The position numbers and the translations under genes were made by a program. Positions 2,779 to 21,763 of a stretch of 28,410 nucleotides of DNA are shown here, one piece after another (position 1 is the first letter of the stretch; each line of letters starts with the position of its first letter). This stretch comes from a virus. The stretch spans positions 1 to 28,410 of IMG/VR virus record IMGVR_UViG_3300009537_000132; one strand, given 5' to 3'. The notes beneath the pieces are model-generated. The model searched no databases, had not been told where the DNA came from, and saw only the letters and a list, made by a program, of their open reading frames with translations.

Positions 2779-3354
2779 ATGCCCTCTATCCACGGTCACG
2801 GCTACACAACGTTCTACGAGGGCCCCGATCAATCAGCGGCTCGTGAGTTTACACGTCTGACGGACTTTGCGAGTGAGGTAGAGGTCTCGATGGGGGGGAT
2901 GAGCGTTGCCATTACTGACCGTATGGGCCCTCCTATTGTTTACAGCGTACCGACTCTGCTAGATTTCACTTTTCCGATGGTATCGTCAGGGGACTGCGTT
3001 CCCTCTCCAGCTACAGATCGGATAAATATACGATATGGAGGAATGTACGCAGTAAACTTTTTCGGCTCGACCAATTTCGTACTCTATGATAGTGGCCTGT
3101 TCCAGGTTGAAATTCGGCTTAATGGAGCCCTCTTGTTACCGGCAATACGTCTTACCTTTCCCCTTCTGGGGGCCGTGGGAGGGATCGCCTACTTTACCGG
3201 CTTCAACCTTAATGGGCACGCGAGGATTCCAGATGAGTCGTATCTTGAGGTTTGGGTTGTGCCATCAATCACCTCTGCTACGGAGGTTTGGTGGGGAGAA
3301 GGAACTGGACTGCGTGTTCAAGGATTTCGTCTTTACGCAGGAGCTAGTTTTTAA
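2779..3354 (+). CDS. beta-rich fibre or spike-like virion protein
   Basis: A 191-residue protein starting at an ATG one base after the previous stop. It has no signal peptide. The region from about residue 55 onward alternates hydrophobic beta strands (DRINIRYGGMYAVNFFGS, FQVEIRLNGALLLPAIRL, GFNLNGHARIPDESYLEVWV) and ends in a Gly-rich strand, LRVQGFRLYAGASF. The GxYxVxF...V.l.vNG...f pattern recalls the C1q/TNF-like jelly-roll fold used as the trimeric head of many phage fibres. I infer a fibre head or decoration protein from this and from its place at the end of the tail block. No database-level identification is possible here. Confidence 0.55.
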   Translation: MPSIHGHGYTTFYEGPDQSAAREFTRLTDFASEVEVSMGGMSVAITDRMGPPIVYSVPTLLDFTFPMVSSGDCVPSPATDRINIRYGGMYAVNFFGSTNFVLYDSGLFQVEIRLNGALLLPAIRLTFPLLGAVGGIAYFTGFNLNGHARIPDESYLEVWVVPSITSATEVWWGEGTGLRVQGFRLYAGASF

Positions 3355-3356
3355 GT

Positions 3357-3369
3357 CCGGCCTAGCCGG
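3357..3369 (+). other. small GC-rich hairpin before the lysis/envelope block
   Basis: CCGGC-CTA-GCCGG forms a perfect 5-bp stem with a 3-nt loop in the 29-nt space between the stop of the beta-rich protein and the start of the holin-like gene. It is followed at once by the GGAAGGAGAG ribosome binding site and has no T-tract. It may be a processing or translation-control hairpin rather than a terminator, or it may be chance. Confidence 0.3.
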
Positions 3370-3383
3370 GAAGGAGAGAAGTG

Positions 3384-3611
3384 ATGGGTGCTGGATATAA
3401 GACGATGATTGTCAATGGAGTGGTGCTGTTCTACGCACTGATCAGCTACTTCTTCGGCCCTTCGGAAGATACTCCAGATGTGGAGGCAATCGCCGCGTTG
3501 GTGGATCAGGGGACAGCGGTGTGGCTGAGTCTCGTTGCTGTGGTAAACGGCATCCTGCGGATGGTCACGCGGACTCCCGTATTTTTCCGCAGCACAGGAG
3601 CGGGGTCATGA
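3384..3611 (+). CDS. holin-like small membrane protein
   Basis: A 75-residue protein starting at ATG 3384, behind a strong AAGGAGAG site; the GTG at 3381 is in frame but too close to be preferred. It has two hydrophobic stretches: roughly residues 8-25 (MIVNGVVLFYALISYFFG) and 41-58 (GTAVWLSLVAVVNGILRM). They are separated by an acidic loop rich in Glu and Asp, and a basic tail (VTRTPVFF) follows. Size, two membrane segments and basic C-terminus fit class II holins and similar phage inner-membrane proteins. The stop overlaps the next ATG (ATGA), tying it to the PagL-like gene. Holin function is inferred from topology and context; it could be another phage membrane protein. Confidence 0.6.
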   Translation: MGAGYKTMIVNGVVLFYALISYFFGPSEDTPDVEAIAALVDQGTAVWLSLVAVVNGILRMVTRTPVFFRSTGAGS

Positions 3612-4069
3612 AGCGAGCACTGATTGCAGCAATCCTGCTGCTCGTCAGTGCCTCGGCCGCGGCTTGGGACGTGCGCCTCTCCGGAGGCGTATCGTCCGCC
3701 AACTCGTGGTCGTACTTCAGTGGCGACGCAGGGGCAGCAGAGGCGAGTCTTCTGGTCGGTAATTGGGATCTCACCTCCGGCTGGATAGGAGACCAGCGGG
3801 ATGTGGTAGACAACTTTGCCTACTTCAGCGTACAAAGGGTTATCCGCATTCAGGCGGCTGGTGGGACCCCCTTTATCGGCCTTGGTGGGGCTATTCGGAC
3901 GAAGAGTGACAACATTGATCTCTTGCTACCGGAAGCTGTTAATTTCTCAATCTCCCTCGGATTCGAGTTCGGTAGGGCGTCTATCCAAGCCAGGCATATG
4001 TCTAATGGCGGGCTTGGTGATTCCCCTAATCGAGGGAATAACTGGCTACTTGCCGGGTGGAGGTTTTGA
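3608..4069 (+). CDS. PagL-like lipid A 3-O-deacylase (outer-membrane acyloxyacyl hydrolase family)
   Basis: A 153-residue protein with a clear signal peptide (MKRALIAAILLLVSASAAA, cut near residue 19). The mature part is about 134 residues of alternating strands and ends in Phe (LLAGWRF), as expected of a small outer-membrane beta-barrel. Near the C-terminus it has RHMSNGGLGDSPNRGNNW, matching the PagL-family signature H-x-S-N-[AG]-G...N-x-G. H130 and S132 correspond to the catalytic His and Ser of PagL, which removes the 3-O acyl chain from lipid A. The third PagL residue, a Glu shortly after the Asn-x-Gly, appears to be Asn here, so activity is not certain. Start ATG 3608 overlaps the holin-like stop; the next gene is coupled by TGATG. 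I infer a role in outer-membrane weakening at lysis or in changing LPS. Confidence 0.72.
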   Translation: MKRALIAAILLLVSASAAAWDVRLSGGVSSANSWSYFSGDAGAAEASLLVGNWDLTSGWIGDQRDVVDNFAYFSVQRVIRIQAAGGTPFIGLGGAIRTKSDNIDLLLPEAVNFSISLGFEFGRASIQARHMSNGGLGDSPNRGNNWLLAGWRF

Positions 4070-4437
4070 TGCGCACGCAAGCGAGATTTCTATACGCCCT
4101 GTTTGTGGCGATTGCCCTGACTGCCTGTGTGCAGCTAACGCCAGCGGCAATACTGGCAGACGGCTATGAGAAGGTTGAGAAGGTCACCAGGGCACAGAAC
4201 GACCAGCTCGAGCGGGCCATGATGCTGTACCAAACAGAGCGGAGCGACGTAGCGAGGACTCGTCTGCGCCTCGAGATTGAGAGGGCCAAGCGAGTACAGC
4301 AGTTTAAGAATGAAACCCTGCGGGTACTCGACCTTGCGGATGATGCCCTCAATGCAGGGCAGATGGCAGAGGCAATGGGCTACCTTGGGGTGGTCGATCA
4401 GATGCTTGCCTTACTGGAGGATAGAGTCAATGAGTGA
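4069..4437 (+). CDS. outer-membrane lipoprotein with coiled coil, possible spanin-type protein
   Basis: A 122-residue protein starting at the ATG that overlaps the PagL-like stop. It has a hydrophobic signal segment ending in LTAC (Cys20), a good lipobox, so it should be lipid-anchored. Residue 21 is Val rather than Asp, which favours outer-membrane sorting. After a short linker it is almost entirely helical and charged (about residues 38-115, with repeats such as RTRLRLEIERAKRVQQF), consistent with a coiled coil in the periplasm. Lipoprotein plus coiled coil beside a holin-like gene suggests an outer-membrane spanin or similar disruption factor. However, it is longer than typical Rz1 proteins and no inner-membrane partner is visible. 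The role is therefore tentative; the lipoprotein call is firm. Confidence 0.7.
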   Translation: MRTQARFLYALFVAIALTACVQLTPAAILADGYEKVEKVTRAQNDQLERAMMLYQTERSDVARTRLRLEIERAKRVQQFKNETLRVLDLADDALNAGQMAEAMGYLGVVDQMLALLEDRVNE

Positions 4438-4657
4438 CGCGGCAATTATCTCTCTGGTTCGTATGTTCATCGCAGCGGTGCTGGCCCTCAAAGCGAATCC
4501 GTCGAAGGTGGCAGAAGCGATCAAGCAGGCGGAGGCGGCTGGAAGGAAGTTTGGAGAAGACCCGAGTGATGTCGCTTCCTTTCGGGCAGGAGCCCATCAA
4601 GCTGGAGATGAGCTTGACGAGACAATTCGGAGGGCAGACGACCTGCTCAACGAATAG
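4430..4657 (+). CDS. small helical protein of unknown function
   Basis: A 75-residue protein starting at ATG 4430, overlapping the end of the lipoprotein gene by 8 bases in another frame. The N-terminus has a moderately hydrophobic helix (AAIISLVRMFIAAVLALKA), which could be membrane-associated. The rest is a charged Ala/Glu/Asp-rich helix ending in RRADDLLNE. No family is recognised. Position at the end of the lysis/envelope block suggests a related accessory role, but it may equally be a small virion or chaperone protein. It is followed by a 9-nt gap with a TAGGAG site for the next gene. Confidence 0.6.
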   Translation: MSDAAIISLVRMFIAAVLALKANPSKVAEAIKQAEAAGRKFGEDPSDVASFRAGAHQAGDELDETIRRADDLLNE

Positions 4658-4666
4658 GAGACTGAG

Positions 4667-5533
4667 ATGTCAAACGGAACTGTAACTGTCTCTGAGCCCG
4701 ACTATATCAAGGAGGCTCGAAAGGACTTAATCGACCGAACGACAGCGCTGGTTGATGAGGGAATCCCTGTCTATGAAGGAGATCGGGTCGCAGACTTCAC
4801 TCCCAATCAGCGGGCTGGACTAGATGCTCTGGCCGGATTCGCTGGGTCGCCTGGAGCGCAGCAGGGGATAGATGCTGCCCTAGCCGCGAACCTGTTCTGG
4901 AGTGATCCGGCGACGGCTCTGGATTACAGAAACATTCCGGGGCTGGCGGACGCTGAGTCGAGTATCCAGAATCAGGTTGGAACGTACCTGACGGAAACAG
5001 CCCTGCCGGCGATTGCGGAGGACGCCCTCCTTGCCGGTGGACTAGGTGGGTCGCGGCAGGGGGTCGCGCAGGGAATTGCGGTAGGGAAGACTTCGGAGGC
5101 ACTCGCCAATGAGCTAGCCCGGCTGCGGGTCAACCTCTCGAGTCAGCTGCTCGGGACACACGAAGGTGCGCTTAACCGAGTAGGGAACTTACTCACTGCC
5201 GGCACAATTCCAGGGCAAACCCTGCTAGAAGCTGGCGCCATTGAGCAGGGGCAGGAACAGACCGAGCTTCAGGGGCTCATAGACGAGTTCCAAGACAGAG
5301 CCAATGCCCCCTATTTAGGCTTAGATCAGCTGCGCGCTAGTTTGGGAGGGGCTGGTGGAAGCACGACTACATCAAGGCCGGAGGAGGGCAATCTGGCCAG
5401 TCAATTGTTGGGGTACTACATATTTGGTAGGGGCTCAGGGGTCTTCCCCAACATACCCGGTGGGGGCTCCCCGGTAGGAGGGGGCTTCGGTGGGGGCTCC
5501 AACGAATCCTACGACCTACCGTTTGCTTATTAG
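4667..5533 (+). CDS. internal/ejected virion protein
   Basis: A 288-residue protein with a good ribosome binding site (TAGGAGACTGAG before ATG). It is Ala/Gly/Leu-rich and mostly helical, with the line AGGLGGSRQGVAQGIAVGKT around residues 123-142. Similar lines occur in DNA-ejection or internal virion proteins of short-tailed phages, often just before a very large internal protein. The C-terminus (from about residue 225) is low-complexity and Gly-rich (PGGGSPVGGGFGGGS). It opens a series of five consecutive genes with the same character, which supports an internal-core or ejection role. The family call is by general resemblance and context only. Confidence 0.65.
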   Translation: MSNGTVTVSEPDYIKEARKDLIDRTTALVDEGIPVYEGDRVADFTPNQRAGLDALAGFAGSPGAQQGIDAALAANLFWSDPATALDYRNIPGLADAESSIQNQVGTYLTETALPAIAEDALLAGGLGGSRQGVAQGIAVGKTSEALANELARLRVNLSSQLLGTHEGALNRVGNLLTAGTIPGQTLLEAGAIEQGQEQTELQGLIDEFQDRANAPYLGLDQLRASLGGAGGSTTTSRPEEGNLASQLLGYYIFGRGSGVFPNIPGGGSPVGGGFGGGSNESYDLPFAY

Positions 5534-7436: not shown

Positions 7437-8712
7437 TGGATCACTTGGCTTGGCGTTGCTGGGAGCGACGCCCCCACAACCCCCTGCAACTCCTGCGCAG
7501 GCAGCTCAGCCGGCGGTAGGTCCCCCACAGCCTCCCCCACAGCGGGGCGGTGTTCTAGGGGCCCTGAGCAAAGGCTACGGTCGAATTGGGCAGCTGCTAA
7601 GCGACATCGAGACCGATCCAGCGAAGCGAAGAGCCTCGCAGGTTGCTGCCTTGCAGTTGATTGGAGGTGGAAGTAGCTTCAACCGAAACCTCTCTCAGGC
7701 GGGCTTGGCGGCGCTGCAGACCTATGAGGCGGTGCAGGAGCAACAGCGCGCAATCGCCGCCCAGGAAGCAGAGCGGCTTCGACTCGAGAAAGCCGCTGAG
7801 CTGGAACGGGAGAGGTTCAAGTTCGAGCAACAGAAACTGGCCTCTGAGGAGAAGAGAGTCAAGCAGAAGGAGCGAATGGAGGCCTTTGCGAAGGCGAAGG
7901 GATACGAGCTTGACAAGGAAAGGAACGAGATCCTTCGATCGCAGGTGGCGGCGCAAAGGGCAGCTACGGCGGCAGAAAGGTCTACCGCGGAGGAGCGCCT
8001 GCTAGAGCGTAAGAGAAGGGTGCTGATCGCTGAGGGGTTGACAGAGCTTGAGGCAGACAAGCTGGTTCTTTTTGCCGGGGATACGAGGGACGCTGAGGTT
8101 GTCGCTGGGGTTGCTGCGAAGATATGGGATAGCAAGTTCAGAAATTCGCCTGATCCTCTCGCCTTCGATGATAATAAGGCAGCGGCAGACTCGATGGAAG
8201 TAGCGAAGGCGCTGTACCCGCAAGCGGGAGTGACCATAGACCAGGTCGTTGAGGCAATCAAGAAACAACGGGAAGGCGGAGCTGAGGAGCCCCCGCCAGA
8301 GAGAGAACCGCCCCCTGAGAAGGAGCCTCCACCACGGGCTCTCCCTGGGAGAGTCTCCGTTACTCCCGCTCAGCAAGAGCGGGCCGCTCGCATTGCTCGC
8401 GCAACCACCCCAGAAGAAAAGGCTCGTTTATCTCAGCTAACCCCGGCTGAGGGCGGTGGATCGGGAGGCCTCTTGCAATCTGGGTTGAGGGCTGTAGCCG
8501 GGGCTGTCTCATCTGGCTTCGATCAAGCTAGGGCCAGCCAGAAGTACGTAGGCCGTACCGTTCAGTTAGGTAGCGAAACTTGGGTAGTAGTCGCTACTGA
8601 TCCGAACACAGGAAAAGTCGTCATGCAGAACCCAGTGACGAAGGAATACGACGACACCATGCAGTATTCAACTCTTGTAGGATACCTGGAATATGCCCCA
8701 ACGGGACCTTAA
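7429..8712 (+). CDS. coiled-coil internal virion protein
   Basis: A 427-residue protein. ATG 7429 with GTGGAGG six bases upstream is preferred over the in-frame GTG at 7417. The first 45 residues are Pro/Gln/Ala-rich. Residues about 95-205 are a long, highly charged coiled coil (EERLLERKRRV and similar). A short region near 285-305 is a Glu/Pro repeat (EEPPPEREPPPEKEPPP), and the last 60 residues form a small beta-rich domain (KYVGRTVQLGSETWVVVATD). The gene overlaps the giant virion gene by 20 bases. An internal-core or ejection role is inferred from position and architecture. Confidence 0.62.
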   Translation: MANGSLGLALLGATPPQPPATPAQAAQPAVGPPQPPPQRGGVLGALSKGYGRIGQLLSDIETDPAKRRASQVAALQLIGGGSSFNRNLSQAGLAALQTYEAVQEQQRAIAAQEAERLRLEKAAELERERFKFEQQKLASEEKRVKQKERMEAFAKAKGYELDKERNEILRSQVAAQRAATAAERSTAEERLLERKRRVLIAEGLTELEADKLVLFAGDTRDAEVVAGVAAKIWDSKFRNSPDPLAFDDNKAAADSMEVAKALYPQAGVTIDQVVEAIKKQREGGAEEPPPEREPPPEKEPPPRALPGRVSVTPAQQERAARIARATTPEEKARLSQLTPAEGGGSGGLLQSGLRAVAGAVSSGFDQARASQKYVGRTVQLGSETWVVVATDPNTGKVVMQNPVTKEYDDTMQYSTLVGYLEYAPTGP

Positions 8713-11700
8713 TGCTCTAGCGCTGGAGGAGATTGGACGGCGGCGACAGGCCCAACCGGCTTCCCCAGCCACTACTCCCCAACCAGGGCGGCGAGACCTG
8801 AACGCTGCCCTGCAGCAGGAAATCCAAAACCTCTACACGCTGGAGAAGGACCGCTATGATTCTCGACTGAGGGCACAGAGCGCTCTGTCTGCGGAGGGGG
8901 CCTTCACCTCCCGCAACGATATGAACGCTCGCCCACGACCGCTGGGAATCAAGTCAGGAGACGCCGGTTGGATTGACTCCATGAGGCGGGGTGCGTTTTC
9001 AATTGGAGGCTCGGTTTACGAGGCCTTTGGAAACACGGCGGCGTCAACGCTGGAATCAGGCCGGCGGGTGTGGGATGAGGCTGTACTGGCGATCTCTGAC
9101 GATGAGAGAGATCAGGAGTACCTGCGGGAGATAACACAGCGGGAGCGAGACTTCGGTATGCGGTCGAAGTGGGCTTCGCTTATCCGAAACGCGACTCAGC
9201 TCGAACCAGATGATGTCGTGCCGGGCTTTTGGACGAGGGACCTGCCCAGCGCACTTGGCTACTCCGCAGCGTTTCTTTCAGGGGGCGTCGCGGGGGCTGC
9301 TGTGCGGATTCCCCTGTGGTTCACCACTGGCCTGTTAGGATCTGCCGTTGGCGGGCTGTCTGGCTATGAGGATGCAGTAGCGAGCGGCGCCTCGGAAGAG
9401 GACGCCTCCATGTCGTACCTGATTAATGCGGCGGCGGGCACGTCGGAAGCCTGGCCGCTATTCAGCATCGCAAAGCGGCTGAACAAGTACAGCGGCGGCA
9501 AGCTGGCAAATGTCCTTAAGGGGAAAGTCGATCAGCTGAAAATTAAGTCCTCCGTCAAAGGTTACATCGCCAAGGAAGCCGCTAAGGGCGCGCTGGAAGA
9601 GGCAATGCAAGAGGTCTTCCAAACGGGGATGCAGAACTGGACGGCAGCCGATCTGGTTGGCTACGATTCGACAAGGAAGTTGTCAGAGAATATCTGGGAG
9701 GCAGGCAGCACGGGAGGTACTGTTGGCGGGATGCTTAGCCTTCTCGCCGCTGGGGTCGGAGTAAAGATGAGGGGGACTAGGCTGCAGTCAATGGTGGACC
9801 AGCTGGGAGAGCTTGAAGAGGATCGACTCCCCCTGGATCAGGCGCAGCTGGCACTCGACGTGAAACGGAAGTGGGAGCTGATTGGCAGCTCGAACGATCA
9901 ACTCGCCTCGGAGAACGCTGAGAGACTCAACCGACTGACCGGACCCCAGCGAGTTGCCTTCAATCAGATTTCACGTATCCACATGGAAGAGGGCCCCTTC
10001 CTTTCTGACAGTAGCCATATAGAGCATGGGACTTATGAGCAGAGGTTGCGTAATCGGGAGGTTATCACCCCTGATGGGCCTATGACTTTTGATGAGTGGA
10101 GGAAGTCAGAGCATAAGGTAGCGATTAAGATAGCTGGCCCTCCAACGCAGGAAATCGTCCCCGTATTTGATGAGCTTATTGGTGACTTGGGGGAGTTCCT
10201 TGGGAAGCTCAGTGAATCGCTACGAATTATCCAGAATCCTCAAGAGAAGACCCTGATTGATTTCTCAAACACCGCGACTCGAAGCTCCCTCGGCAGTATG
10301 GAGGTTCTCAACCTCGACCAGAATGGTGAGTGGTCTCGAGACCGTGTAGACACAGGGACTACAATCATCCTCAATGGGACTCATACTGCTAAGGTTGCAA
10401 CAGCCTTTCGAATGGCTACTTTCGCGGGCGCAGAGACTCTTCAAACCGTCAAGCAAGCTATCTACGACGTTGCCCTGCATGAAACGGGACACACCTGGCT
10501 ACAAACCCATTTGCAGGGTATTCTGAGGCAAGCGGCTGTTGACGTGCTTGCAGGAAAAACGGGCACGGAGTCTGTCCGCCTGGCGCGGGCAGTTAGAGAG
10601 GGATACACGAAGTACCTGCTTGACGCCTTTGCGAATAGTGAGCGAGATTGGGTTGGCAGGAATATGGAGGCTCACATCGCTTCCCGCTTCTATGGAGGGC
10701 AGACCTTCCCCGAGTCCCTGCAGCATATTCCTAACGCGCAGTTCTCCTCTGGACCTGTGCCTTCACATAGCAACAATGGACGGCTCTACTGGCACAATAT
10801 ACACGAGTGGTGGGCGCGTTCCGTAGCAAGGACACTTTCTGGAGAGTTCGGTAAGGACGCCGCCGATTATGGGCTGGTTCCACCGGAGATGATGAAGGGG
10901 AGTACACTTGAGCAGATTCGACAAGAGCTGAAGGCAATCTACGCCGCCCTGCCCCAAGAGTACAAGATTTATCGAACGGCGGAGCAATTCATTGATGCGA
11001 TGGGAAGTCAGCTGGTCCTCCTCGATGCGGCTAAGACGCAGCGGTCGAAGGAGCTGTTCGAGGCCATACTGAAGGGAAACATTGAGGAGCGGGAACTCCT
11101 CTCTGAGCATACTGCTTGGGATACTCACCTCGACCGATACAACAAAGGTTGGCGGTGGGGAGCTACACTGCCGCAGCTCTCCTGGATCAACAAACACATC
11201 AAACAGGTAGTCAATTACGTAACTGATGTGGGCAAGTGGGATGCGCTGAGGAAGCGCCTGATGGCCTCTGCGAATACCCTCGTGTCGGAGGGGAGAGAGC
11301 TTGGGAAGGAGACGGCGAATCGTGTTTTCACTACTCTGCTGGAAGAGGTAGCAGATGAAGCGTACCTGAGTGAAAGTGAATTGGTAACGCGCCTTGGCAG
11401 CGATGAGGCACTGGCCTACTATCAAAAGGTCCGTAAGCACTTCCGAAGAATCCTGGACCAGATGGAGGAGGTGCTTGTCAACCGGACAAAGCACCTCTAT
11501 CGAGATGAGGCACTGACTCAGGGAAGGAAGATTCAGGAGATTCGGCTGCAGTTTGCTCGGCTGAGAGAGCGACCCTACTTCCCAATGATGAGGTTTGGGA
11601 AGTATGCTGTCGAGGTCAAGGATCGAGCCGGCGGGAACACTGTGTTCTACGAGATGTATGACACGGTGGAGGAACAAGAGCTCTCCTTGAATGAACAGAG

Positions 11701-13834
11701 GAATCGCCACCCGGACGATAAGTTTTCGACCTCGAAGAGAGAAGTTAGTGATATAGAGCGGGTGGCGCAGGGTATGCCACGGGACTTCATCGCCATGATG
11801 GAGGAGTCCTTCGAGCGGGCCGGAGAGCCGCTTAACGAGGAACAGCAGAAGCTGCTGAAGAACCTTGCCTTTGAGGCCCTGCCGGCGAGGTCGTTCCTGA
11901 ACCACCTGAGGAAGAGGACGGGAATTGAAGGGTTCTCCTACGACGGGCTGAGGATCATTGCAGCGTATACTCACAATGCGGCCGGCTACATCGCGAGGGC
12001 GCGGTATGGGTTCCAGATGCAGGAGCATATTCGGTCGCTGAGGCAGAACGCGAACCTGATTCGGGCGGCGGCAAGCAACGAGGTGAAAGACCTTTCCAAG
12101 AGAGACCAGATAGCGGACCACTTGGAGAGGCACTACAACTACATCATGAATCCCCAGAGTGAGTGGGCGGGCCTTCGCTCGATGGGGTTCCTCTACTACC
12201 TGGGATACAACCTGAAGTCAGCCTTCATCAACATGACCCAGGTCCCCTTCGTAACCTATCCCTATTTGGCGGCGAGGTTTGGTGATGCGCGGGCGATCAA
12301 GACACTAACCCTGGCGAACAAGCAAGCCATGGATTACCTCACCAATCCGAAGAAAGTCTCGGATGATTTGGTCGAGCTGATTCAAACCGGCATGCACGAG
12401 GGATGGATCGACGAGAGCCTCGCGACCGAGCTGGCGATGGCGAGGACGGATGGGATAGTTGATAGGATGCTGCCCTTGGACGTCAAGGGGAAGTTTCGCG
12501 CCCGTGAGCTGAGAAAGCTCGGCAAACACTTCTATTTCAAGGCGGCGCACTACGGCGCCATGCCCTTCCATACGGTAGAGAAATTTAACCGAACTGTCAC
12601 AGCGATTGCGGCATATCAGCTTAGTCGAGAGAAAGGGATCTCGCACAGCAACGCGATAGGAGAGGCGAAGGAAGCGGTGCAGAGGACTCAATACGAATAT
12701 GCACTGTGGGCTCGGCCAGAACTGATGAGGGGCAAGAAGGGAGCGCTCTTTCTCTTCAAATCGTACATGCAGGGTAGCCTGTTCTTCGCCCTGGAAGATC
12801 CAGGTGCGTGGCGCTACCTGTTGATCCTTATGGTAACGGCGGGACTACAGGGACTGCCGGGGGCGGAAGACTTTCTGGATCTGTGGGATACCTTAGGGAC
12901 GAAAGGGCGGGAGGTCGCCGGCCTGCCGGGCAGGTCCGACATTCGGAAGACCCTGCGGCAGGAATCAGCCCAGCTGGCGGAGGCCATTGGGGTCCACCCA
13001 GACATCTTCTTCCACGGTATCGCCTCGCAGTCAATGGGGTTAGGTCTGCTGGGAGAGGCGCTGGGAATCCCCATTCCTAATGTAGATCTGTCCGGCTCGC
13101 TCTCGATGGGGAATATCTTTCCAGGGACAGACATCTCGAAGAAGATCCAGGGAAGGAATACTCCGCAGGAACTGGTTGGTGAGCTGGTGGAGGACATTGG
13201 TGGTCCCTTGGGGGCGATGGGAATGGGCTTGGTGTCGCCTTTCATTCGAGACGACCCTCACGTGTGGAGGCGCTGGGAGCGGGCCCTGCCGCTGTTCATG
13301 AGGCAAGCCTCGAAGGCGACCCGGCTGCTGTCGGAGGATGGAGTGGAAACCACGCCGGGCGGTGAGGTGATTGCTAAGTTCGACCTGAACGATCCAAGGG
13401 ATATAGCGGAACTCGCTCTCACCACCTTCGGCTTCACCCCAAGGAAGCTAAGTCGGGGCTCGCAGAGATTGATTGCGGAGCTGCAAGCGGTTTCCTATTG
13501 GCAAGCGCAAAAGATGAACATTCTTCGCCAGCGCAACTACGCCATCGAGAATAGGGATCGGGAAGCCGTTGCAGACGCGCAGATAGCCGTTCGGGAGTAC
13601 AACGATCGAGTTCCCTACGGAGAGATGAAAGTCAACGCGGAGGATATGGCGAGGAGTTTGAGGAGCTACCTGGACCGCCGGCGAGTGCTCAGTCGAGGGA
13701 TGGCAACCCAGATGGAGTTCAGGCGTTTGAAGAGGGAGTACGCAGAGGCTTACGCGGGGATTCTTTCGCGGGACAGTCAGGGCACGGAAGTAGTTCCCCC
13801 AGCCGAATCTTCTCCTCCCAATAGTCAACAGTAG
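8693..13834 (+). CDS. giant polyvalent internal virion protein with HExxH metalloprotease-like domain
   Basis: A 1713-residue protein, of the size class of ejected polyvalent phage proteins. The N-terminus has two copies of an RDLNA motif (residues 4-8 and about 34-38). A Gly/Ala-rich hydrophobic region spans roughly 180-360. Residues 596-600 are HETGH, a zinc-peptidase HExxH motif in a helix; EWWAR starting at E705 could supply a third ligand. Long charged helices follow. Around 1147-1185, YIMNPQSEWAGLRSMGF... and the segment with RGKKGALFLFKSYMQG resemble the C-terminal regions of large polyvalent phage proteins. The likely role is ejection into the host with DNA, with possible proteolysis of cell wall or host targets. 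Translation starts within the preceding gene. The 3' end overlaps the convergent HTH gene by 116 bp. Confidence 0.75.
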   Translation: MPQRDLNALALEEIGRRRQAQPASPATTPQPGRRDLNAALQQEIQNLYTLEKDRYDSRLRAQSALSAEGAFTSRNDMNARPRPLGIKSGDAGWIDSMRRGAFSIGGSVYEAFGNTAASTLESGRRVWDEAVLAISDDERDQEYLREITQRERDFGMRSKWASLIRNATQLEPDDVVPGFWTRDLPSALGYSAAFLSGGVAGAAVRIPLWFTTGLLGSAVGGLSGYEDAVASGASEEDASMSYLINAAAGTSEAWPLFSIAKRLNKYSGGKLANVLKGKVDQLKIKSSVKGYIAKEAAKGALEEAMQEVFQTGMQNWTAADLVGYDSTRKLSENIWEAGSTGGTVGGMLSLLAAGVGVKMRGTRLQSMVDQLGELEEDRLPLDQAQLALDVKRKWELIGSSNDQLASENAERLNRLTGPQRVAFNQISRIHMEEGPFLSDSSHIEHGTYEQRLRNREVITPDGPMTFDEWRKSEHKVAIKIAGPPTQEIVPVFDELIGDLGEFLGKLSESLRIIQNPQEKTLIDFSNTATRSSLGSMEVLNLDQNGEWSRDRVDTGTTIILNGTHTAKVATAFRMATFAGAETLQTVKQAIYDVALHETGHTWLQTHLQGILRQAAVDVLAGKTGTESVRLARAVREGYTKYLLDAFANSERDWVGRNMEAHIASRFYGGQTFPESLQHIPNAQFSSGPVPSHSNNGRLYWHNIHEWWARSVARTLSGEFGKDAADYGLVPPEMMKGSTLEQIRQELKAIYAALPQEYKIYRTAEQFIDAMGSQLVLLDAAKTQRSKELFEAILKGNIEERELLSEHTAWDTHLDRYNKGWRWGATLPQLSWINKHIKQVVNYVTDVGKWDALRKRLMASANTLVSEGRELGKETANRVFTTLLEEVADEAYLSESELVTRLGSDEALAYYQKVRKHFRRILDQMEEVLVNRTKHLYRDEALTQGRKIQEIRLQFARLRERPYFPMMRFGKYAVEVKDRAGGNTVFYEMYDTVEEQELSLNEQRNRHPDDKFSTSKREVSDIERVAQGMPRDFIAMMEESFERAGEPLNEEQQKLLKNLAFEALPARSFLNHLRKRTGIEGFSYDGLRIIAAYTHNAAGYIARARYGFQMQEHIRSLRQNANLIRAAASNEVKDLSKRDQIADHLERHYNYIMNPQSEWAGLRSMGFLYYLGYNLKSAFINMTQVPFVTYPYLAARFGDARAIKTLTLANKQAMDYLTNPKKVSDDLVELIQTGMHEGWIDESLATELAMARTDGIVDRMLPLDVKGKFRARELRKLGKHFYFKAAHYGAMPFHTVEKFNRTVTAIAAYQLSREKGISHSNAIGEAKEAVQRTQYEYALWARPELMRGKKGALFLFKSYMQGSLFFALEDPGAWRYLLILMVTAGLQGLPGAEDFLDLWDTLGTKGREVAGLPGRSDIRKTLRQESAQLAEAIGVHPDIFFHGIASQSMGLGLLGEALGIPIPNVDLSGSLSMGNIFPGTDISKKIQGRNTPQELVGELVEDIGGPLGAMGMGLVSPFIRDDPHVWRRWERALPLFMRQASKATRLLSEDGVETTPGGEVIAKFDLNDPRDIAELALTTFGFTPRKLSRGSQRLIAELQAVSYWQAQKMNILRQRNYAIENRDREAVADAQIAVREYNDRVPYGEMKVNAEDMARSLRSYLDRRRVLSRGMATQMEFRRLKREYAEAYAGILSRDSQGTEVVPPAESSPPNSQQ

Positions 13835-15199: not shown

Positions 15200-17524
15200 C
15201 TACTCGCAGGCACCCCAACTAGGCCCTATTTTTGGCTCGGCTTTAATGGTGAGTGGGCGGGAGTAGGGAATGGAGATCTGCATGAATTTGGGAATGAGAA
15301 CTTTCGCTTCCGGTGTCTGGGTTGACGGCCACTGAAATCCAGCTGAATCGTGTGTTTGAAGTAGGAACTGCGCCCAGCGAACGTTGTGCACGACTCGGCG
15401 AATTCCCAGGTTTGTAGCAATTGCAACGGTGGACTGGGGTATCCATGCGAGGGCCTCCTTCAACAGGTTTTCGATTCTGTCGAAATAGAACCTTCGATAG
15501 CCAAAGCGGTTTTCGACGTACCGCCTCTCCATCAGTTGCCTCTCTATCCTTGTATGCCATTGTCGAACTCCAGGATGCCGCGAAAACCAATCGTCTATGA
15601 TGTAGGTTGCAAGCGATTCCTTTATGCCTAAATTGCGCGCGAGGCCATAGGGAGTGACACCGTAATTAGCGGCGTGGACGCAGGACTTTGCGATCTGTCT
15701 AGGCACTCCCCAGCGTTGCGAGTTGTCGTCGTGAAGGGGGAAACCACTTCGAATCTTTTCCAGCAAGTCCCAGTCTTCGGCTTCTGCGGCGACTACCTGA
15801 GCATCGGCAGCGGAAAGGTCGAACTCTCCGAAGTCGTACCCAGGGTCCGCGAGGAACAGCAGACGGAGGTTGGGAATTTCCAGGTCCCCGTTCTTTTCGC
15901 CCTTCGTGATGTTCTGCAGATTCGTACCAAACCCAAAGGCGTCCTCACTGGAGGAGAATCTGTAGGTTTCCGTTCCGGCGACATTATAGCTGCATCTAAT
16001 ACGCTTGTCAAGGTCGAGTGGTTGTAGGCAAAAGGCGAGGGAGCTGTAGAGTTGTCTGGTTTGGTTAATCAAGGTACAGAGATATTCAAGTAGGGGCTCA
16101 CGTTTGGCTATTACGTCGAGGGCGTCGGCGTCTGTAGTGGGGCGCTTGGTTTTATAATTGACGATTACTCGTTGGCCAAGCTGGCGGTAAAAGAGGTCTT
16201 GAAGTTGCTTTGGGGACTTGACGTTGAGGGGGGCACCAGCTATCTGGTTGATAATACCCTCCCGTTTAGCGATCTCGTCCAGGGTTTTCATAGTCAAGGA
16301 CTTTTTAAGTTCCTGATCTACGCGAACCCCCCGGAGCATAGCGGACAATACGAGAGGGAAAAGAGAAAGCTGAATCTCGTTTGGAGCGCCATGCTCGTTG
16401 GTGGGGAAGCTGAGGGATTCCAGTACAGCGCTTTGGCGCTCAGCCACTTCCCAGGTTGCTACCGCATCCTTGCAGTTGTATGTCCAAAGCTGGTCCTCAG
16501 GTGTATTCTTTGGGTTCCAGTTCTTCCCTTCATCTTTCCAATACTCGTGCCAATCGAGGTAGAGGGAGGAGAGAAAGTCGAGTCCCTTAGGCAAGCCAGC
16601 GAAGCAGACATGGTGGGTGAGCATGGTGTCTCGCCATACACGAGGGATAAGAAACAGTTGTCGGCCAAGGTATTGAAAGTCGTAGGCTAGATTTTGGCCT
16701 GAGATAAGGCAGTTGGGGTGGAGAAGAAGGGTCTGCAAGGAAAGGCCCAGCTGGCGTTCTTCCTCGAGGCTCCAGTATGACTTGTCCTCTTTAAGGATGT
16801 CGATGAAAGGGATACAGATGGCGTCCTGAGCAGACCAGGCGAGGCCAAGGCAGGCTATCTGTCGATGGCGAGTTTCAATATCGACTGAGATGTGAGTCGG
16901 CCCCGACATACAGCGGGCGGTTAATTCGTGGATTCGGGCGAGGGCTTCTGAGTAGCTGGGTCGTATAGTGAAGTGGTACTCAGGTGGCTGGATCTTCCCG
17001 GTGATAAACTTCCTCGCCCGGCGTAGGTCGTGGACTGCTATGTACCGCCAGTCCCAATTGCGGAGTATCGCTGCTGGGTGGTAGGTAGGCAGGACGACCG
17101 GGCCAGAGTCGAGTTGAAGGAGGCTGCCCCTCCACTTAGTAATTCCCCAATAACCAGTCAGGGCCCACAAAGGGGTGTTACCGAAGGCGATTATCAATCG
17201 GGGCTTGACTTCATCGACCTCAGCTTTCAGTTCTTTAATTCCCTCGACTAGGGGCGGCTTTGGGTACTTACCAGAGAGAGGCAGCAAACCGTCTGATTTC
17301 TTTCCGAAGAAGTTTTCGATCTTGTTTCGAGGAGGGCGCTCCTTGCAGGCGTTCGTGATAAAGCAATCCTGGCGGAGGAAGCCCGCTTCGTGGAGCATCT
17401 TGGTCATTTCCACGCCGGAAGGGCCGACGAACGGCTCGCCGTGAAGGACTTCTTGCTCGCCAGGGGCTTCCCCAACGACCATCACCGCGGAATTGCGAGG
17501 GCCCGCAGCAGGGACAGAGGTCAT
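15200..17524 (-). CDS. fused uracil-DNA glycosylase and family A DNA polymerase
   Basis: A 774-residue protein. Residues 1-180 form a family 4/5-like uracil-DNA glycosylase domain (GEAPGEQEVLHGEPFVGPSG at 18-37; TYHPAA at 147-152). The 3'-5' exonuclease follows, with VDIET (D215, E217), NLAYDFQYL (D282) and YNCKDAVAT (D353). Polymerase motif A is DLSAADAQV from D569, motif B is RQIAKSCVHAANYG (609-622), and motif C is HDS (725-727) in place of the cellular HDE. There is no 5'-3' exonuclease. N-terminal Cys ligands of the usual iron-sulfur cluster are missing, so the glycosylase fold may be structural or degenerate. The start overlaps the previous stop (ATGA). It is the main replicative polymerase of the phage. 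Confidence 0.92.
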   Translation of the reverse strand: MTSVPAAGPRNSAVMVVGEAPGEQEVLHGEPFVGPSGVEMTKMLHEAGFLRQDCFITNACKERPPRNKIENFFGKKSDGLLPLSGKYPKPPLVEGIKELKAEVDEVKPRLIIAFGNTPLWALTGYWGITKWRGSLLQLDSGPVVLPTYHPAAILRNWDWRYIAVHDLRRARKFITGKIQPPEYHFTIRPSYSEALARIHELTARCMSGPTHISVDIETRHRQIACLGLAWSAQDAICIPFIDILKEDKSYWSLEEERQLGLSLQTLLLHPNCLISGQNLAYDFQYLGRQLFLIPRVWRDTMLTHHVCFAGLPKGLDFLSSLYLDWHEYWKDEGKNWNPKNTPEDQLWTYNCKDAVATWEVAERQSAVLESLSFPTNEHGAPNEIQLSLFPLVLSAMLRGVRVDQELKKSLTMKTLDEIAKREGIINQIAGAPLNVKSPKQLQDLFYRQLGQRVIVNYKTKRPTTDADALDVIAKREPLLEYLCTLINQTRQLYSSLAFCLQPLDLDKRIRCSYNVAGTETYRFSSSEDAFGFGTNLQNITKGEKNGDLEIPNLRLLFLADPGYDFGEFDLSAADAQVVAAEAEDWDLLEKIRSGFPLHDDNSQRWGVPRQIAKSCVHAANYGVTPYGLARNLGIKESLATYIIDDWFSRHPGVRQWHTRIERQLMERRYVENRFGYRRFYFDRIENLLKEALAWIPQSTVAIATNLGIRRVVHNVRWAQFLLQTHDSAGFQWPSTQTPEAKVLIPKFMQISIPYSRPLTIKAEPKIGPSWGACE

Positions 17525-19996: not shown

Positions 19997-20463
19997 CAGC
20001 TGTCCTCCCCGTTCCCTTTGGGCGTGAGAACCTGCGGCTTGCTGCCCCAGGGCTCGTTGTTCGCTTCACGTTCACGCCACTCCTTAATTCCACGAACCTT
20101 TTCAGCAGCCGTCTGATCCGTGTCGGAGGAAGCTCCCTCAAGGGCAACTTCCGCCGGCTGGGTTCCAGGGGGCCAAGCTTGTGTAGTGACCCCCACTGTC
20201 CCAGGGTGCCAGAGAACCAGTACTTCGTCGTCCAGGGTCATGTATCGCCACTTGCACTTGGGACACTCGTATTCAATGTTAGGCCCCGCGGGAGCGGCCT
20301 GAACAAACATACAGAGAGGACAGGTGTACTCCACTAGGTCGTGGGTTATTTCGTACTGATACCCGTGCCGGGCTGGATCAACTATCCTCTGCGATACGTT
20401 CCTCCTGATCCGAACGTGCTCCCACAGGGGTAGTTTCGCATGTCTCGGTGGAAGGTGTGGCAT
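19996..20463 (-). CDS. zinc-ribbon protein
   Basis: A 155-residue protein. ATG 20463 follows TAAGGAGATAGTCA, a strong site, so the 86-bp overlap with the methyltransferase gene is accepted. Cys48, Cys51, Cys67 and Cys70 (YTCPLCMF and YECPKCKW) form a zinc ribbon. The stretch before it is basic, and the C-terminal half is polar and probably disordered (VALEGASSDTDQTAAEK). DNA, RNA or protein binding is likely; the specific role is unknown. Confidence 0.65.
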   Translation of the reverse strand: MPHLPPRHAKLPLWEHVRIRRNVSQRIVDPARHGYQYEITHDLVEYTCPLCMFVQAAPAGPNIEYECPKCKWRYMTLDDEVLVLWHPGTVGVTTQAWPPGTQPAEVALEGASSDTDQTAAEKVRGIKEWREREANNEPWGSKPQVLTPKGNGEDS

Positions 20464-21763
20464 TGACTATCTCCTTAATACGGGCTTCGCAGATGGAAGC
20501 ATACTGCTCGTCCATTTCAATTCCAGTGGCATCACAGCCAGCGTCTTCGGCGGCGCGGAAAATCGAGCCCGAGCCGGCGAAGGGATCGAGCACCTTACTC
20601 CCTGGGTGACAGGACCAAGAGAGCAGTTCATACAAGAGTTCACTTGGCTTCTCGGCTGGGTGCACCTTGTGGTCGCGAAATACTGAATTGAACTGCAGCA
20701 CGTCCTGGCCTGTTTTCAGCACACGCTTCATTCCCTTGTTAGCGAATAGGATACATTCATAGGTTCGCTTGGGTCCGTAGTCTGGTTGCGGGGCGTGGGC
20801 TGTTGGCCCCTTGTACCATATCAGTGGGGTTTTCCAGACCTGCCAGCCAGCGTGGTTGAAGAGGGAACGGAGGATACCGAAGTGCTCGATTGCACAGAAC
20901 ATAAACAAGTGGCCTGTTTCCTTGAGTAGCCACTGCCCCTCTTCCGCAAGCATTTTGGCTGCTTTGAGCGCAGCTTCCTCTGTATCCTTGTATTCGTGTG
21001 CCTTGCCCAGGAAGCTCGCCCCTCCGAAAGCGTCCGCTGCTATTCCGTAGGGAGGGTCGGTCAGGATGCAATCGAACTGATCCTTGTCAAGCCCTGGGAC
21101 TACCTGAAAGGCGTCCCCAGGGATCAACGTGTGTCGCTTGCGATAGCCTCCTATATCAACCTGGCTTCCGAGCTTCGCCATCAGCTCACGCTCGATTAGC
21201 TTCTTGGCGATTCGGACAGCCTGGCCCTTGGTTCTGGCGCTCTTCACTTCAGGGTTGTCTGCGAACTGATCGAGGAGTAGCGCATCTCCCACCTCAGTTG
21301 AAAGCGCCGGATAGTGCCCTGTACCTCGCAGGTCTGCGACGGCTTTACCAGTATCGAGCTTGGTCCAGTTTGGGTTCCGCTCCTTCATCAGGCGGTGCAG
21401 CTGGGCAGTCGCTTGGGCCTGCTCGAGGTGAGACAGGTTTTTGCGGCGGATATTCTCCTCAAGTTCAATTCGGTAGAGGTCGAGATCGGAGGTGTGGTGG
21501 GTGCGGATTACTGGTACGAGGCCAGAGGGAATCCGCTCCCCGTTGTAGTGGAAGGACTCTCCAGCGTCCATCAATACCTTGATGGCTTGCCGGCGACACT
21601 CACCGGCGACCAGCACTCCATCGGGAGAAAGGACCGGCGCGTGAAGCAAACCGCTCTCCTGAATCGAAGCCGCGAGTTGTCCAATGTGCTCGCCGGGGTA
21701 GTCCTTACGCTGGCGGCTGGGCTGGAGCTTGATTGCCGCCCATTCAATAAGTTCTGTGTTCAT
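20378..21763 (-). CDS. ParB-like domain fused to beta-class DNA methyltransferase
   Basis: A 461-residue protein. Residues 5-120 are a ParB/Srx-type domain (QPSRQRKDYP, VLVAGECRRQAI; GECRR at 54-58 replaces the usual GERR). The methyltransferase follows: LTDPPYG (DPPY at 236-239), HPAEKP (368-373), then VLDPFAGSGS (393-400). The DPPY motif comes before the SAM-binding FAGSGS motif, as in beta-class N6-adenine or N4-cytosine enzymes. It probably methylates phage DNA against host restriction; the ParB part may give sequence or nucleotide binding. The start overlaps the phosphatase stop (ATGA) and has GGAGGGG upstream. Confidence 0.88.
   Translation of the reverse strand: MNTELIEWAAIKLQPSRQRKDYPGEHIGQLAASIQESGLLHAPVLSPDGVLVAGECRRQAIKVLMDAGESFHYNGERIPSGLVPVIRTHHTSDLDLYRIELEENIRRKNLSHLEQAQATAQLHRLMKERNPNWTKLDTGKAVADLRGTGHYPALSTEVGDALLLDQFADNPEVKSARTKGQAVRIAKKLIERELMAKLGSQVDIGGYRKRHTLIPGDAFQVVPGLDKDQFDCILTDPPYGIAADAFGGASFLGKAHEYKDTEEAALKAAKMLAEEGQWLLKETGHLFMFCAIEHFGILRSLFNHAGWQVWKTPLIWYKGPTAHAPQPDYGPKRTYECILFANKGMKRVLKTGQDVLQFNSVFRDHKVHPAEKPSELLYELLSWSCHPGSKVLDPFAGSGSIFRAAEDAGCDATGIEMDEQYASICEARIKEIVNATPSTETCETTPVGARSDQEERIAEDS

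Follow-up and report, generated by a model that had tools for sequence, protein, structure and literature searches.

The way in which phages breach the outer membrane of Gram-negative bacteria is currently explained by spanins and a few disruptins, and the locus described here raises the question of whether a phage may use a lipid A-cutting enzyme at this step. The DNA analysed (the window) is an IMG/VR virus record of 28,410 bases from an uncultivated tailed phage, whose relatives are 44-47 kb in size. At 3608-4069 it carries an ORF encoding a protein of 153 aa (P0001), which the original prediction had assigned to PagL, a family of enzymes that remove a fatty acid from lipid A. All features described below lie on the plus strand unless stated otherwise. 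Our analysis shows that this ORF is a real, divergent, phage-encoded relative of PagL, and that it shares an operon with genes for a holin-like protein and a predicted lipoprotein.

The ATG of the PagL-like gene is preceded at a distance of 7 nt by a Shine-Dalgarno-like AGGAG (3596-3600). A signal peptide at residues 1-19 (3608-3664) is predicted from the sequence, its hydropathy and a helix at residues 2-19 of the structural model; it reads MKRALIAAILLLVSASAAA and is followed by WDV, with an AxA cleavage site (ASAAA before W20) that leaves a mature part of 134 aa. The motif strand, RHMSNGGLGDSPNRG, comprises residues 129-143 and contains H130 (codon 3995-3997) and S132 (4001-4003), which align with the catalytic H126 and the nucleophile S128 of PagL, respectively (alignment A1; numbering by alignment with PagL of P. 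aeruginosa, PDB entry 2ERV). N145 (4040-4042) is aligned in the same way with E140 of PagL, and the protein ends in WRF, that is, with Phe as the last residue. The coordinates, the reading frame, the signal peptide, the H130/S132 motif and the C-terminal Phe given in the original prediction all match the sequence, and the Asn that it had placed at the third catalytic position is real.

The Pfam family PagL (PF09411) matches the protein marginally, with 23.2 bits (E 8e-5) against a curated cut-off of 23 bits. A profile constructed from 47 homologs, with the protein itself left out, gave it 30.2 bits; among 2000 shuffles in which the signal peptide was kept, the highest score was 20.3 bits. No other ORF in the window was significant for this profile. 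When the protein was divided, the motif and last strand (27 residues) scored 18.4 bits, a value reached by 0 of 2000 shuffles, and the remaining mature part scored 3.1 bits, which is not significant and was reached by 97 of 2000. Because the score is concentrated in the motif and last strand, the case for kinship is built on a strong motif together with the fit of the protein as a whole. In the collected relatives, the motif residues were partly fixed beforehand by the search pattern; G95 and F113 are also conserved in the alignment, although they lie outside that pattern. Searches against PHROG and NCBIfam gave no match, and a sequence search of the PDB gave no meaningful direct match. These results support the assignment of the protein as a divergent member of the PagL family, whose sequence similarity is weak outside the motif strand.

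Structure prediction by AlphaFold2 with an alignment of 48 sequences yielded a model of exactly eight strands (pLDDT 76, pTM 0.65). The same prediction without the alignment gave no fold (pLDDT 32), so the predicted fold is dependent on the PagL alignment. The top PDB matches of the model in Foldseek were chains A and B of PagL 2ERV (E 2e-4; identity about 22% in the fold alignment), and NspA, OmpX-like and other small eight-stranded barrels ranked close behind. H126, S128, N129, G131 and N136 of PagL correspond to H130, S132, N133, G135 and N141 of the phage protein, and E140 corresponds to N145. Compared with PagL, the phage protein has a one-residue insertion in the loop between the catalytic strands, a shorter last strand and a mostly diverged barrel; H130, S132, N133, G135, N141 and G143 are kept although the remaining sequence has diverged. 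The original prediction had named the lack of a barrel, or of a His/Ser alignment with PagL, as evidence that would count against it; we found eight strands and aligned His and Ser. The profile, the fold search and the mapped residues all support the claimed kinship.

The Asn at the third catalytic position could be taken as the mark of a dead enzyme. By scanning one genome per species for 84,980 species with a pattern that asked for Asn or Asp only at this position, we obtained at least 120 cellular loci; among the matches listed, 95 carry Asn and 25 carry Asp, and they come from Proteobacteria, Acidobacteria, Bacteroidota, Nitrospirota and other groups. Two Bordetella loci among these matches carry Asp. 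The PagL of Bordetella bronchiseptica is an active enzyme (PMC11401268). Judged from these sequences, the PagL family often has Asn at the third site, no frequency being given since the scan did not count Glu. Since cellular members frequently have Asn or Asp here, Glu does not strictly define the family, and we rejected Asn as an argument for a dead enzyme.

The PagL-like gene is joined to its neighbours on both sides, as the original prediction had described. Upstream, an ATGA overlap connects it to a gene (3384-3611) encoding a protein of 75 aa with hydrophobic stretches at residues 7-25 and 36-54, which we call holin-like from its topology, the sole basis for the name; it had no match in Pfam and only a weak one in PHROG, to a family of unknown function. 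Downstream, a Shine-Dalgarno-like GGAGG (4059-4063) within the PagL-like gene precedes the gene for a predicted lipoprotein of 122 aa (4069-4437; lipobox LTAC20, charged mature part), which begins at the final base of the PagL-like stop codon and thus overlaps it by one base. No family matched the lipoprotein at the cut-off in Pfam, PHROG or NCBIfam. Its gene is overlapped by eight bases by the next one (4430-4657), for a protein of 75 aa that has a single hydrophobic stretch, at its N-terminus, and a tail rich in charges; no family match was found for it in Pfam or PHROG, and it is possibly an inner-membrane partner. The lipoprotein and this protein form a candidate outer/inner membrane pair (4069-4657). 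The lipoprotein may be part of a spanin in its own right; the PagL-like protein, a predicted barrel and not a lipoprotein, lies outside the definition of a spanin.

On the left, the cassette is accompanied by the gene for a virion (needle/particle) protein of 392 aa of the kind found in LUZ24/tf-like podoviruses (1599-2777; phrog_3287, E 1e-63; tblastn matches in 267 phage records), and its right flank is the gene for a DNA ejection protein (4667-5533; phrog_4287, E 9e-17). The cassette therefore sits in the virion region, not among early genes. In phage tf and in Mel-JY34, the slot between the needle and ejection genes holds a different protein of 144-148 aa. Mel-JY34, the nearest annotated relative, has a holin gene and a peptidase-like gene just left of the needle gene, and therefore this neighbourhood is a lysis site in Mel-JY34. 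No endolysin was found in the 28,410 bases of the window, which is an incomplete record. No sister phage was found in viral contigs via the needle protein or a protein of 1713 aa encoded at 8693-13834, which has no Pfam match but in its C-terminal half resembles antirestriction proteins of the DarB type and giant phage proteins. On the minus strand, a single ORF at 15200-17524 combines a uracil-DNA glycosylase domain, a 3'-5' exonuclease and a family A DNA polymerase, and a 461-aa protein encoded at 20378-21763 has a DNA methylase domain (N6_N4_Mtase) and an N-terminal part that looks ParB-like by eye.

No close relatives of the PagL-like protein were found in phages, viral contigs or genome contigs. 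This protein and three other phage PagLs had no match in 50,697 phage records, a search with P0007 only returned P0007 itself, and a pattern with the exact motif spacing of the window found no phage; the matches of a looser pattern were chance matches only. Uncultivated phages, unlike cultured ones, did give matches: when 2.9 million viral contigs were scanned with a pattern, 118 loci were obtained, each encoding a PagL-like ORF. Of these, 109 are of Pseudomonas type (Glu), and the other nine, which have Asp or Asn, are diverse. The Pfam cut-off was passed by all of the proteins scanned, namely eight of the nine diverse ones and one of Pseudomonas type; the ninth diverse PagL, L042, is a near copy of L057. 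Two other candidates, L125 and L126, were rejected as chance matches, and second PagL copies in a Pseudomonas-related genus were rejected as prophage genes, for they look chromosomal and lie near efflux genes.

The original prediction had proposed a search for PagL genes beside holins in other phages, and such genes were indeed found, at locus L094 and in the Pseudomonas prophages as a group. At L094 the setting among lysis genes is clear: the PagL gene comes after one for a tail fibre, and downstream of it lie genes for a small TM protein, a lipoprotein, a further TM protein and an endolysin (phrog_465, E 8e-34). The PagL of the Pseudomonas-type prophages (L109, L013, L100 and 106 others) is PHROG 15758, annotated as of 'unknown function'; it is near-cellular, and PagL of P. 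aeruginosa was its one strong match in the PDB. Among the 74 Pseudomonas-type loci with enough flank for an upstream count, 71 have a Q-like gene on the same strand no more than 3 kb upstream of pagL. These Q-like genes belong to three unrelated families. Two of the families have matches among Q-like PHROGs, in one case a weak match, whereas phrog_3412 is called 'Q-like' by position only. Downstream, a holin-like or Rz-like (spanin-like) gene occurs within about 4 kb of pagL in 42 of 66 loci, and a holin-like, Rz-like, terminase or HNH gene in 61 of the 66. Many of these contigs are near-duplicates, and the independent events behind the counts are few, perhaps three. Phage PagL genes also occur away from lysis loci: among tail genes at L116, among small genes at L011, and near replication-type genes at L042/L057. 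Directly upstream of the prophage pagL at L101, a protein (2827-4434) resembles a LOV/PAS light sensor by eye. We found no account of a phage-encoded PagL in the open-access literature, nor a description there of the repeated association of PagL genes with lysis loci in phages.

We propose, with a probability of about 0.5, that the protein is a PagL-family outer-membrane barrel, a lipid A deacylase which loosens the outer membrane at lysis. It would be made late, when the virion genes are expressed, from a block of overlapping genes that also encodes the holin-like protein and the lipoprotein; it would be exported by its signal peptide and, as sequence and model suggest, inserted in the outer membrane. 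There H130 and S132 would most likely cut an ester-linked acyl chain from lipid A, with N145 standing in for the usual acid; this deacylase activity is inferred from homology. The position of the gene and the recurrence of PagL at lysis loci suggest that the loss of acyl chains and the release of detergent-like fatty acids may loosen the outer membrane; once the holin and endolysin had done their part, this last barrier would then yield, with the enzyme working beside spanins or partly instead of them. The protein would then work like LysB of mycobacteriophages, but on a Gram-negative outer membrane. The recurrence of PagL beside lysis genes in other, unrelated phages supports a lysis-linked role, by analogy with LysB, and the overlapping operon and the holin beside the needle gene of Mel-JY34 also speak for it.

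Against the lysis role count the phage PagL genes that lie away from lysis loci, the Q-proximal slot, which also houses morons, and the window's lack of an identified endolysin. Living bacteria tolerate deacylated lipid A, so deacylation alone may not lyse the cell. The strongest of the rival readings is that the deacylase remodels the LPS of the infected cell or lysogen, blocking the adsorption of related phages or the sticking of progeny to debris. PagL enzymes are known to alter the LPS anchor, genes in the slot after Q are often morons, and the Pseudomonas prophage copies are close to the cellular enzyme, all of which would fit; however, the gene in the window lies in the virion region and overlaps the holin-like gene, instead of standing among early genes, and PagL targets lipid A, not the outer sugars bound by most LPS phages. 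We consider LPS remodelling rather unlikely to be the explanation here.

The other readings concern the protein itself. A catalytically inactive barrel descended from PagL, serving only as a structural element or partner of the lipoprotein, would agree with the Asn at the position of E140, the loop insertion, the shorter last strand and the diverged barrel, but the retention of all six motif residues from H130 to G143 amid divergence elsewhere and the frequent Asn or Asp in cellular relatives speak against it, and we regard it as improbable. Still less credence, and very little indeed, is due to a different eight-stranded barrel with a single, fortuitous motif in common with PagL: similarity is not significant once the motif strand is taken away and NspA and OmpX-like barrels rank close in the fold search, yet shuffling did not reproduce the score of the motif and last strand, G95 and F113 are conserved outside the search pattern, and the best fold match is PagL.

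Taking the phage loci jointly, we tentatively suggest that PagL has been taken up repeatedly by phages that infect Gram-negative bacteria, to serve as an enzymatic lysis factor for the outer membrane. In the same tentative reading, such a PagL would correspond in function to LysB and would add a third route to those of spanins and disruptins. If the lysis role is true, a lipid A-cutting enzyme at a lysis locus would be an enzymatic solution to the breach of the outer membrane, and phage lysis could alter the structure of the endotoxin released. It also provides a candidate function for PHROG 15758, which is present in many Pseudomonas prophages.

Among known systems, PagL of P. aeruginosa (2ERV), a lipid A 3-O-deacylase, shares with the phage protein the signal peptide, the eight strands, the catalytic His and Ser, the Asn/Gly/Asn of the motif and a C-terminal aromatic residue, whereas the phage protein is phage-encoded and shorter, has Asn at the Glu position and bears the loop insertion. 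PHROG 15758 is likewise a phage-encoded PagL, situated between Q and the lysis/packaging genes, but it is very close to the cellular Pseudomonas enzyme and has Glu as third residue, and the protein in the window gave no match to this PHROG. Spanins (Rz/Rz1 and u-spanins) resemble the PagL-like gene, in the role proposed here, in the third step of lysis, the outer membrane as target and an adjacent lipoprotein gene; unlike the proposed deacylase they are not enzymes, they fuse membranes, and they have no sequence relation to it. LysB of mycobacteriophage Ms6, a mycolyl-arabinogalactan esterase, is a lipolytic enzyme that is encoded in a lysis cassette and attacks the outermost membrane, as proposed here for the phage PagL; its loss leads to incomplete lysis, and it acts at the spanin step and was likened to spanins by its authors (PMC5707550). 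It differs from the phage PagL in fold, substrate and host envelope, and the analogy is one of role, not of kinship. A second precedent is the release of colicins through the activated outer-membrane phospholipase A, a lipolytic barrel that acts with a small lipoprotein.
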